From positions 60,770 to 124,769 of the forward strand of contig SEAY01000001.1 of assembly GCA_004144865.1 (NCBI GenBank): DNA of 64,000 nt. The letters are read 5' to 3'. The DNA comes from Comamonadaceae bacterium (GTDB lineage: Bacteria > Pseudomonadota > Gammaproteobacteria > Burkholderiales > Burkholderiaceae_C). Made by a program: the position numbers and the translations under genes. Positions 56,985 through 64,000 of this stretch are shown piece by piece; positions within the stretch are counted from its first letter, which is position 1; each line of letters opens with the position of its first letter. The notes beneath the pieces were generated by a model. It ran no database searches, was not told the origin of the DNA, and worked only from the letters and a program-made list of their open reading frames with translations.

Positions 56985-58232
56985 ATGCCGACCGAGACCT
57001 CCGCGCCGCGCCACATCCGGCTGACTTCCCATGCAGGCGGCTTCGGCGCCCTGCCCCTCCTGTGGGGCGCGCCGACGCCTGCGGAGCGCGGGCCCGTCGT
57101 GGGCACCACCACCAAGCGCGCGCACCGCAACGTGATCGGCACCCACAGCGGCTCGTACAGCGTGTACCGCGCCCTCGCTGTCGCCGCCGGTGCACTGAAC
57201 CGCGATCACAAGGCGGACCTCACCAACACGGCGCCCACCGACCAGATCGGCCCCTACCCGCAGTGGACCGACCCCGGCAAGATCGTCAGCCTCGATCCCT
57301 GGGGCGCCACCGTGGCCGAGGTGTTCGCCACCGAGATCGCCGCGGGCTACGACATCCGCCCGACCGTCGCCGTGACCAAGGCGCACGTGATCCTCCCGGA
57401 AGTGATCGAGGCGATCCAGAAGGGCCGCCTGAAGGCCGACGGCCAGGTCCTGCTGGAAGGCGGTGCGGCCTGCGTGACCAAGGCGGCCATCGAACCCGTC
57501 TGGTGGCTGCCCGGCGTGGCCAAGCGCTTCGGCTGCTCCGAGGCCGACCTGCGCCGGGTGCTGTTCGAGGAAACCGGCGGCATGTACCCCGAGCTGGTGA
57601 CGCGCAGCGACCTCGAAGTCTTCCTGCCCCCCATCGGCGGCCAGACCGTCTACATCTTCGGCAACCCGCGCGACCTGGCCAACCCCGAGGTCGAACTGAC
57701 CGCGCGCGTGCACGACGAGTGCAACGGCTCGGACGTGTTCGGCTCCGACATCTGCACCTGCCGCCCCTACCTCACGCACGCGATCGAGGAATGCATCCTG
57801 GGCGCCCAGCGGGGTGGCGTGGGCCTGGTGTCGTATTCGCGCAAGGAAGGCCGCGCGCTCGGCGAGGTCACCAAGTTCCTGGTCTACAACGCGCGCAAGC
57901 GCCAGGTGGGCGGCGACACCGCCGACAAGTACTTCGCCCGCACCGAGTGCGTGGCCGGCGTGCAGGACATGCGCTTCCAGGAGCTCATGCCCGACGTCCT
58001 GCACTGGCTGGGCGTGCGCAAGATCCACCGCCTCGTCTCCATGAGCAACATGAAGTACGACGCCATCACGGGCTCGGGCATCGAAGTCGGCGAGCGCGTC
58101 GACATCCCCGAGTCGCTGATTCCCGCCGATGCGCGCGTGGAGATGGACGCCAAGAAGGCGGCCGGCTACTTCACGCCCGGCACCGTGCCGGACGCCGACG
58201 CCCTGAAGAAGACGAAGGGGCGCACGCTGTGA
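56985..58232 (+). CDS. GTP cyclohydrolase II-like protein (URC1-type)
   Basis: C-x10-C-x-C zinc motif in ECNGSDVFGSDICTCRP; 415 aa; followed by DUF1688 and upp. Confidence 0.87.
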   Translation: MPTETSAPRHIRLTSHAGGFGALPLLWGAPTPAERGPVVGTTTKRAHRNVIGTHSGSYSVYRALAVAAGALNRDHKADLTNTAPTDQIGPYPQWTDPGKIVSLDPWGATVAEVFATEIAAGYDIRPTVAVTKAHVILPEVIEAIQKGRLKADGQVLLEGGAACVTKAAIEPVWWLPGVAKRFGCSEADLRRVLFEETGGMYPELVTRSDLEVFLPPIGGQTVYIFGNPRDLANPEVELTARVHDECNGSDVFGSDICTCRPYLTHAIEECILGAQRGGVGLVSYSRKEGRALGEVTKFLVYNARKRQVGGDTADKYFARTECVAGVQDMRFQELMPDVLHWLGVRKIHRLVSMSNMKYDAITGSGIEVGERVDIPESLIPADARVEMDAKKAAGYFTPGTVPDADALKKTKGRTL

Positions 58233-59500
58233 CCGAAGGCCACACGGTCGGCAGCAACCCGGCAGCCGAAGAGGCGGCGCGGGTCCTGCGCACCACCACC
58301 GCCGTGCGCGAACGCAGCCGCCAGCTGCTGGATCGCGCCCGCGCCGGCGATTCGCGCTGGTTCGTGGTGGAGGACGGCTTCATGGACACGGCCGCCCGCG
58401 CGGTAGCCGACGTGACCCGGCGGCGCTTCCCGAAGCTGCACATCCCCTTCCACAGCCGCTGGCGCCATTTCGAAGCGGGCGGCGTGGACCGGCGCGCGGA
58501 ACTCGACCGGCTGCTGGGCGACGTGCCGCACACCGTACGCGCGCACGCGATGATCGACCTCGCCTTCGTGAGCGTGCTGCTCGACGCGGGTGCCGGCCCC
58601 GACTGGAACTACGTGGAGCCGGCCTCCGGCCAGACCTTCACCCGCTCCGAAGGACTGGCCGTGGCGAGCTTCCACTCGTTCACGAGCGGGCTGTTCTCCA
58701 GCGACCGCAACCGTCCCCTGCAGGCCGACGCCGAAGGCCTGCGCGCGCTGGTGACCGACCATCTCGCGAGCGCCTTCCAGGTGCGCGGCAACAACCCGCT
58801 GGTGGGCCTGGACGGCCGCGCCGTCCTGCTGCGCCGGCTGGGCGAAGTCATCGCCGAGCAGCCGGAGGTGTTCGGCGACGAGGTGCAGCGCCCGGGCGGG
58901 CTGTTCGACATGATCATCTCGCCGCTGGGCCCCGACGTACCGCGCACCGCGGACGTCGCGGCGCACGACATCCTGTCGCAGGTGCTCATGAGCTGCAACG
59001 GCATCTGGCCCTCGGGCAGCTCGCTGGAGGGCGTGCCCCTGGGCGACTGCTGGCGCCACGAAGCCGTGCGCGGCGAAGGCCTGTCGGACGGCTGGATCCC
59101 CTTCCACAAGCTGTCGCAGTGGCTCACGTATTCGCTGCTCGAGCCCTTCGTCTGGAACGGCGTGCAGCTGCGCGGGATCGAGCAGCTCACCGGCCTGCCC
59201 GAATACCGCAACGGCGGGCTGCTGATCGACAGCGGCGTGCTGCGCCTGCGCGACGAGGCCGCGGCGCGCGAAAGCTGGCGCCCGGCTGACGAGCTGATCG
59301 TCGAATGGCGCGCCCTCACGGTGGCACTGCTGGACGAACTCGCCATCGAGGTGCGCAAGCTCCTGCACCTCGACGAACAGCGCCTGCCGCTGGCCTGCGT
59401 GCTGGAAGGCGGCACCTGGACGGCCGGCCGCGAGCTCGCGCAACGCCACCGCCACGGCCTGCCGCCGCTCAAGGTGATCAGTGACGGAACGGTCTTCTGA
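58229..59500 (+). CDS. DUF1688 family protein (URC4-type)
   Basis: RWFVVEDGFMDTAARAVADVTRRRFPKLHIPFHSRWRHFEAGG; HDILSQVLMSCNGIWPSGSSLEGVPLGDCWRH; SDGWIPFHKLSQWLTYSLLEPF; GTGA overlap with the upstream ORF. Confidence 0.88.
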   Translation: MTEGHTVGSNPAAEEAARVLRTTTAVRERSRQLLDRARAGDSRWFVVEDGFMDTAARAVADVTRRRFPKLHIPFHSRWRHFEAGGVDRRAELDRLLGDVPHTVRAHAMIDLAFVSVLLDAGAGPDWNYVEPASGQTFTRSEGLAVASFHSFTSGLFSSDRNRPLQADAEGLRALVTDHLASAFQVRGNNPLVGLDGRAVLLRRLGEVIAEQPEVFGDEVQRPGGLFDMIISPLGPDVPRTADVAAHDILSQVLMSCNGIWPSGSSLEGVPLGDCWRHEAVRGEGLSDGWIPFHKLSQWLTYSLLEPFVWNGVQLRGIEQLTGLPEYRNGGLLIDSGVLRLRDEAAARESWRPADELIVEWRALTVALLDELAIEVRKLLHLDEQRLPLACVLEGGTWTAGRELAQRHRHGLPPLKVISDGTVF

Positions 59501-59512
59501 GAAACTCACGCC

Positions 59513-62740: not shown

Positions 62741-63798
62741 GGCTGGAACGCCGTCCCGCCGCCTCGCCGCTGGCGCTGGTGCTCGCGCCGGTGGGGGCCG
62801 TGGCCTTCACCCTGCTGGTGAGCACGCTGCTGGTGCTGTGGGCCGGCGCACCGGTCGCACCGACATGGGCGGCCGTGCTGCGCGGCGGCTTCGGATCGAC
62901 CTTCGCGTGGAGCGAGACGCTCACGCGCGCGACGCCGCTGATCCTCACGGGCCTGGCGGCCGCGGTGGCCTTCCGCGCGCGCCTGTACAACATCGGCGCG
63001 GAGGGCCAGCTCTATGCCGGCGCGCTGGCGGCCGTGGCCGTGGGCGGACTGCAGGCCGGAGAGGCCTCTGGCCTGCCCGCGTCCGTTCTGGCGGCCTGCA
63101 TGTTCGCTGCGGCGGCGCTCGCGGGCGCGCTTCTGCTGCTGGGGCCCGCGCTGCTGAAGGCGAAGCTCGGCGTCGACGAGGTGGTGACCACGCTGCTGCT
63201 CAATTTCATCGTGCTGCTGGGGGTGTCGGCCCTGCTCGATGGACCGATGAAGGATCCGACTGCGATGGGGTGGCCGCAGAGCGTGGCGCTGGCCAGCGAA
63301 CTGGAACTCGCGCGCCTGGTGGAAGGCACCCGCGTGCACACCGGACTGCTCTACGCCATGGGGTTGGCCGTGATTCTCTGGGCGCTGTTGCGCTTCACGC
63401 TCTTCGGTTTCGACGTGCGCGCCCTCGGCGCGAATTCCCGGGCGGCGGCGTTCGCCGGCGTGCCGCCAGTGCGCACGCTCGCCTGGGTGGCGCTGCTGTC
63501 CGGGGCCCTCGCTGGCCTGGCTGGCGCCATCGAGGTGGCGGGACGGGCGGGCTACGTCACGCTGGACATGTCGCCGGGCTACGGCTACAGCGGCATCGTG
63601 ATCGCCATGCTCGCGGGCCTGCACCCGCTGGCGGTCGTCACGGCCGCCGTCTTCGTCGCCGGCATCCAGGTGGGCGCGGACAGCATGAGCCGCGTCGTGG
63701 GCGTGCCCACCTACATCGCCGACGTCATCGTCTCGGCTTCGCTGGTCTCCGTACTGGTGGCGACGCTGCTGGCGCAGCATCGGGTGCGCTGGAGATGA
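62737..63798 (+). CDS. ABC transporter permease (nucleoside-type)
   Basis: TPLILTGLAAAVAFRARLYNIGAEGQLYAGAL; VVTTLLLNFIVLL; ATGA overlap. Confidence 0.93.
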   Translation: MRLERRPAASPLALVLAPVGAVAFTLLVSTLLVLWAGAPVAPTWAAVLRGGFGSTFAWSETLTRATPLILTGLAAAVAFRARLYNIGAEGQLYAGALAAVAVGGLQAGEASGLPASVLAACMFAAAALAGALLLLGPALLKAKLGVDEVVTTLLLNFIVLLGVSALLDGPMKDPTAMGWPQSVALASELELARLVEGTRVHTGLLYAMGLAVILWALLRFTLFGFDVRALGANSRAAAFAGVPPVRTLAWVALLSGALAGLAGAIEVAGRAGYVTLDMSPGYGYSGIVIAMLAGLHPLAVVTAAVFVAGIQVGADSMSRVVGVPTYIADVIVSASLVSVLVATLLAQHRVRWR

Positions 63799-64000
63799 GC
63801 GAAATCCTCGAGCTCCTCGCCAGCCAACCGCTGTGGATCGCCGTGCTGCGCATCGCCACGCCGCTCATTTTCGGCACCCTCGGCGTGCTGCTGTGCGAGC
63901 GCGCGGGCGTGCTCAACCTCGGCATCGAAGGGATCATGGTGGCTGGCGCCTTCAGCGGCTGGCTCGCCGTGTACCTGGGCCTGCCGCTGTGGGCCGGCGT
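63795..64000 (+). CDS. Second ABC transporter permease, truncated by window edge
   Basis: ATPLIFGTLGVLLCERAGVLNLGIEGIMVAGAFSGW; open to the window end. Confidence 0.92.
   Translation, partial: MSEILELLASQPLWIAVLRIATPLIFGTLGVLLCERAGVLNLGIEGIMVAGAFSGWLAVYLGLPLWAG

Follow-up and report, generated by a model that had tools for sequence, protein, structure and literature searches.

A bacterial URC locus for probable nitrogen scavenging from pyrimidine bases, with a URC4 protein predicted to share the fold of Qng1

Introduction

The URC pathway of uracil degradation was described in the yeast Lachancea (Saccharomyces) kluyveri (Andersen et al., 2008), where URC4 is stated to convert ribosylurea to urea (PMC7530994). 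According to published work, URC1 and URC4 are conserved across numerous fungi and bacteria (PMC3869809). The URC genes and their presence in bacteria are already known, and RefSeq uses the name "URC4/urg3 family protein"; the route itself is little studied. The bacterial linkage of URC1 and URC4 to a uracil phosphoribosyltransferase (UPRT) gene has been published too. In this work, we analyzed a URC locus of a Comamonadaceae bacterium, located at 56985..64000 of a window of 64,000 nucleotides (the whole stretch of DNA examined). URC1, URC4, and UPRT are common to this locus and to L. kluyveri; the bacterial operon adds an ABC importer and a cytosine deaminase, and urease replaces the yeast urea amidolyase.

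Other described systems are also comparable in part. Qng1 (DUF2419), the queuosine-5′-phosphate N-glycosidase, is an enzyme of tRNA-base salvage. It is an N-glycosylase/hydrolase of Q-5′-monophosphate, a 5′-phosphoribosyl N-glycoside (PMC12301720). AtzT, a binding protein of the BMP family, binds guanine at 110 nM (PMC6834077), and the structure of its relative 3s99 was modelled with adenine. The Rut operon, like the URC system, serves the use of uracil as a nitrogen source, but its chemistry differs.

We consider it quite likely that this locus is a bacterial URC operon that scavenges nitrogen from pyrimidine bases through an importer, a deaminase, UPRT, URC1, a URC4 of the Qng1 fold, and urease, a function that we infer. 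The new part is the link between URC4 and Qng1, and the value of the locus is that URC4 is made testable.

Predicted fold and reaction of URC4

The URC4 gene (58229..59500, forward strand, as are the other URC and importer genes) encodes 423 aa and matched PF07958 (DUF1688) with 491 bits (cut-off 25). Searches against PDB sequences, with the single sequence and with a profile, gave no match even at an E-value of 10. The AlphaFold2 (AF2) model, built with 33 homologues, has a pLDDT of 92.5. When this model was compared with 350,542 PDB chains by Foldseek, 11 matches had E ≤ 0.001 and all 11 were bacterial or human Qng1/DUF2419 proteins (best E = 5.8e-10, TM-score on the target 0.73-0.75), with the next unrelated match at E = 1.1. 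A second AF2 model (pLDDT 90.8), built for a different member of the family from an alignment of 12 sequences, gave the same picture: 11/11 matches at E ≤ 0.001 were again Qng1 (best E = 3.2e-9), and the next unrelated match had E = 0.47. Across both models, the TM-score on the target was 0.71-0.75. Furthermore, the Pfam family Q_salvage (PF10343) was weakly touched by 11/33 URC4 proteins (best E = 0.0057). Because the PDB sequence searches were empty, the relation between URC4 and Qng1 surfaced by fold comparison and Pfam alone. Our literature search found no paper connecting DUF1688 to Qng1; its coverage was partial, so this is not proof that the link is unpublished.

The predicted URC4 fold is the same as that of Qng1/DUF2419 (7u07, 7u91, and human 7ugk), and the positions of a lysine and an acidic residue are aligned. 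Mutant chains in the PDB fix the Qng1 residues Asp231 (D231N reads FANY) and Lys199 (K199C reads YCRAQ); from these positions and the alignment, Qng1 Lys199 corresponds to URC4 Lys294, and Asp231 to Glu325. Both K294 and E325, the predicted active site, are invariant in 33/33 URC4 proteins and retained in those that are just 40% identical. The hhalign comparison of the URC4 profile with three Qng1 sequences scored 24.96, a value reached by none of 200 column shuffles (mean 15.2, s.d. 2.7, maximum 23.4), and paired PFHKLSQ with PYLKKAQ, LTGLPEYR with LTAFADYQ, and VEWRALTV with TIRAATI. Reference Qng1 proteins were drawn from plasmids. A Q_salvage search of the host genome and 249 genomes of its phylum gave no match; no control matched either, so absence is not implied.

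The Qng1 reaction, the role of URC4 in yeast, the shared fold, and the aligned residues together point to N-glycosidic hydrolysis: URC4 is predicted to hydrolyze the N-glycosidic bond of ribosylurea 5′-phosphate to urea and ribose phosphate. The substrate would be a 5′-phosphoribosyl N-glycoside, as in Qng1, with urea rather than queuine as the leaving group.

URC1 and the proposed pathway

The initial annotation had named a set of URC1, URC4, and FUR1-type genes matching the yeast components, and all were found with strong family matches. URC1 (56985..58232; 415 aa) has the Pfam domains GTP_CH_N and GTP_cyclohydro2 and scored 799 bits to NCBIfam PRK07198 (cut-off 403). It overlaps URC4 by four bases, confirming the GTGA junction noted earlier. 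The UPRT gene (upp/URC6; 59513..60151; 212 aa) scored 281 bits to TIGR01091 (cut-off 208).

The best PDB matches of URC1 are 7eev and 7ej3 (86.4% identity), without notable sequence-level difference. These entries are titled GTP cyclohydrolase II, and we take them to be the structures of the 2021 UTP cyclohydrolase paper (Zhang et al.). PMC12507026 refers to that paper when it treats the URC pathway. With such close homologues crystallized, the chemistry of URC1 is probably no longer open. The earlier view of a chemically incomplete pathway would then concern URC4, for which the gap dates from the first description of URC uracil degradation.

In the GTP cyclohydrolase II reaction, two hydrolyses take a single carbon out of the ring. 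The same hydrolysis logic applied to the UTP ring would free C4-C6 and leave ribosylurea, matching the yeast data. In the proposed pathway, the BMP-type ABC importer would take up uracil and/or cytosine, and the cytosine deaminase encoded at its distal end would, judging from its family, convert cytosine to uracil. UPRT would then form UMP, as expected from its family, and kinases of general metabolism would convert UMP to UTP. By homology, the GTP-cyclohydrolase-II-type domain of URC1 would hydrolyze the pyrimidine ring of the nucleotide; ribosylurea (5′-phosphate) would be left, and the C3 piece would come off as 3-oxopropanoate or one of its precursors. URC4, acting as an N-ribosyl hydrolase of the Qng1/DUF2419 fold in which Lys294 and Glu325 are predicted to stand in for Lys199 and Asp231, would split ribosylurea 5′-phosphate into urea and ribose 5-phosphate. 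Finally, a urease encoded on another contig would free ammonia from urea.

The importer and its ligand

As previously annotated, the enzyme genes are followed by a BMP protein, a tandem ATPase, and two permeases. The BMP-family periplasmic binding protein (60261..61253; 330 aa; PF02608, 128 bits) more likely starts at ATG 60261 than at the upstream GTG 60192. The ATPase (61250..62740; 496 aa) has two nucleotide-binding domains and is kept as a neighbor in L004, L012, L055, and L058 and, by annotation, in L082. Permease 1 (62737..63798) matched BPD_transp_2 (PF02653) with 115 bits and has an ATGA junction. Four-base overlaps are found at BMP/ATPase, ATPase/permease 1, and permease 1/permease 2.

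Permease 2 (63795..64000) is interrupted by the contig end, since the window reaches the terminus of contig C135 in the host genome (G000; 4.35 Mb assembly, 93% complete). The gene continues at positions 1-834 of contig C78 of the same genome, and with this part the components of a BMP-type ABC importer are complete (a Bmp domain, a tandem ATPase, and two BPD_transp_2 permeases). The first 119 bp of C78 are identical to the last 119 bp of the window; identical contig ends of this kind typically mark a junction in the assembly graph. Permease 2 of the related locus L004 matches both the window end and C78. We infer the C135-C78 join from the sequence overlap rather than from reads. C78 then carries genes for a DsrE-like protein and, beyond a single gene on the reverse strand, for a cytosine deaminase. 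This deaminase scored 791 bits to PRK07572 (cut-off 438) and is 71% identical to the one in the URC operon L058; amidohydrolases of the cytosine deaminase type lie within the URC operons of L003, L005, L057, and L058. The enzymes that the initial annotation could not see are indeed outside the window, but they could be found in the genome (the cytosine deaminase on C78 and urease on C221), as could the rest of permease 2 (on C78).

The BMP protein is ~34% identical to AtzT (6pi5) and to 3s99. In all six URC-linked BMPs, the positions of Phe98, Glu165, and Trp194 are kept in common with these purine-binding relatives, whereas the AtzT purine-contact stretch QNTNS (Asn218/Asn220) is replaced by YAERFG, so that the purine-edge asparagine contacts are lost. 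The second BMP importer of the host (L075, on C64) retains a purine-type QNTDS. The best characterized relatives are binders of the bases guanine or adenine, and the locus includes a cytosine deaminase. For these two reasons the substrates of the importer are probably nucleobases, not the nucleosides suggested by the earlier proposal of a nucleoside-type importer. With YAERFG in place of the purine stretch in the URC-linked BMPs and a purine-type BMP elsewhere in the same genome, a pyrimidine base is the likeliest ligand, judging from sequence and neighbors. L075 adjoins genes for xanthine dehydrogenase, Rieske oxygenase, and adenosine deaminase, and it is likely a locus for purine uptake and degradation.

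Conservation of the locus

DUF1688 was present in 26 of the 399 genomes sampled from the host phylum and in 4 of the 297 sampled from the phylum of Mycobacterium aurum. URC1 adjoins URC4 in all DUF1688 loci examined in other genomes, and UPRT is next in all but a few; this linkage is seen in both Pseudomonadota and Actinomycetota. The order is unchanged even in two divergent actinobacterial loci, where URC4 is just 40% identical and UPRT ~31%. In these loci (L088 and L089, in G653 and G664), the gene after URC4 encodes a divergent UPRT of ~190 aa, an apparent replacement or old divergence. The arrangement of the URC genes is not due to chance, and the URC1-URC4-FUR1 order read initially, together with the check for DUF1688 and its conserved neighborhood, holds in nearly every locus. 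The closest named loci are from metagenome bins assigned to Burkholderiales and Ramlibacter.

The BMP importer follows UPRT in the window and in L004, L012, L055, and L058; by annotation, Azospirillum brasilense Sp7 has the same order on its plasmid 3, through the two permeases plus an amidohydrolase. The coupling of importer and URC genes, proposed initially as a dedicated uptake-plus-degradation system, is real, since it is found again in five further loci, including an alphaproteobacterial one. In L055, the binding protein and the ATPase are separated by three additional genes. This operon also holds a protein of the nucleoside phosphorylase fold and, at L055:4663-7440, a protein of 925 aa that combines polysaccharide deacetylase, caspase-like, and TPR domains.

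Urease and other pyrimidine routes

A urease alpha gene on C221 provides the host with a means of using urea. In the 399-genome sample, urease was found in 23/26 URC genomes and 136/373 others (Fisher p = 1.7e-7, uncorrected for phylogeny), and in 7/7 further URC genomes. The use of urea in G119, G256, and G373, which are URC-positive genomes of one family, is not accounted for by any urease found convincing there. The urea carboxylase model TIGR02712 was discarded from the co-occurrence analysis because it matched biotin carboxylases everywhere.

Neither RutA (45 bits, cut-off 498) nor PreA (46.5 bits, cut-off 335) was detected in the 93% complete host genome, and a rut identity was rejected on these cut-offs. 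The expected absence of rut and pyd genes is thus supported for RutA and PreA, but a dihydropyrimidinase-type gene exists on C188, in the vicinity of TRAP-transporter-like genes and of genes for a GntR regulator and an amidase. RutA above its cut-off occurs together with URC4 in 3/20 URC genomes (G256, G259, and G289), so the Rut and URC systems are not mutually exclusive.

Regulation and neighboring elements

A RutR-like regulator is present in L057 and L058 (the L057 protein has 202 bits to RutR, below the cut-off of 368), and both loci have the palindrome CCTGACCA-TGGTCAGG upstream of URC1. This palindrome is similar to the RutR site of E. coli and, with the regulator, is a feature in common with the Rut operon. 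In the window, the region upstream of URC1 showed no palindrome of the RutR type. A palindrome at about -118 (~110 bp before URC1) was rejected as an operator, being a repeat that flanks a transposase-like gene. This 179-aa gene (56294-56833) resembles REP-associated tyrosine transposases by eye and matched no Pfam family at cut-off; inverted 38-nt repeats (56199-56236 and 56835-56872; 87% complementary) flank it. In the UPRT-BMP gap (60152-60260) lies a GC hairpin, CCCCGCGCAGGCGGGG, that lacks a T run. It could be either a repeat element or an attenuator placed between the enzyme half of the operon and its importer half.

Alternative interpretations

Several observations weigh against the interpretation of a pyrimidine-scavenging operon with a Qng1-like URC4. 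The TM-score on the query is 0.57-0.64 with an rmsd near 5 Å, and the likeness is therefore one of fold and core, not a close one. The window URC4 has 12.4 bits to Q_salvage, below the gathering score of 25, so it is not classed as a Qng1 member, and the probability given by hhalign itself is 2.4% with a Qng1 alignment of three sequences. URC4 is also ~100 residues longer than Qng1 and has a glutamate (E325) at the catalytic aspartate. The association with urease takes no account of phylogeny, and three URC genomes of a single family lack a convincing urease. The host cytosine deaminase is parted from permease 2 by the DsrE-like and reverse-strand genes, and the proposed importer ligand comes from relatives and neighbors only. 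The aspartate replacement and the added residues would also fit a URC4 that has the Qng1 fold and performs other chemistry, such as phosphorolysis of ribosylurea, an amidase-type reaction at the ureido group, or hydrolysis at the stage of a ring-opened intermediate that precedes ribosylurea. We regard such chemistry as unlikely, because yeast URC4 is placed between ribosylurea and urea, which corresponds to N-glycosidic cleavage (PMC7530994), and because conserved lysine and acidic residues occupy both catalytic positions.

The importer could instead be a mere neighbor of the uracil system that carries purines, vitamin B6, or another ligand, given that its best characterized relatives bind guanine (AtzT, PMC6834077) or adenine (3s99) and that its nearest NCBIfam model is a putative B6 binder. 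This appears doubtful: every B6 model is far under its cut-off, and a B6 identity was rejected for that reason; the importer recurs after UPRT in the loci listed above; and YAERFG is invariant in the six URC-linked BMPs, set against QNTDS in the purine-neighbored BMP of the host. It is barely credible that the locus serves riboflavin synthesis, with URC1 as an ordinary GTP cyclohydrolase II. RefSeq and NCBIfam PRK07198 do annotate URC1 as GTP cyclohydrolase II, but RibA models reached only 46-58 bits against cut-offs of 148-206 (TIGR00505, 46 against 206), leading us to reject RibA identity, and URC1, which always adjoins URC4, shares 86% identity with the 7ej3/7eev enzyme. We lean slightly toward the broader proposal that URC4/DUF1688 and Qng1 form one superfamily of 5′-phosphoribosyl N-glycosidases, with an Asp-to-Glu change for the urea leaving group, and that the URC-linked BMPs are a pyrimidine-base-binding branch of their family.

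Significance

The near-complete bacterial unit described here (importer, deaminase, UPRT, URC1, and URC4, with urease elsewhere) is suited to testing in a laboratory host, and the solved homologous fold with its mapped catalytic residues opens URC4 to direct enzyme and mutant testing. Probable pyrimidine and purine branches of BMP importers can be told apart inside one genome. If true, a superfamily uniting URC4 and Qng1 would assign the outstanding step of the URC pathway in both bacteria and fungi.

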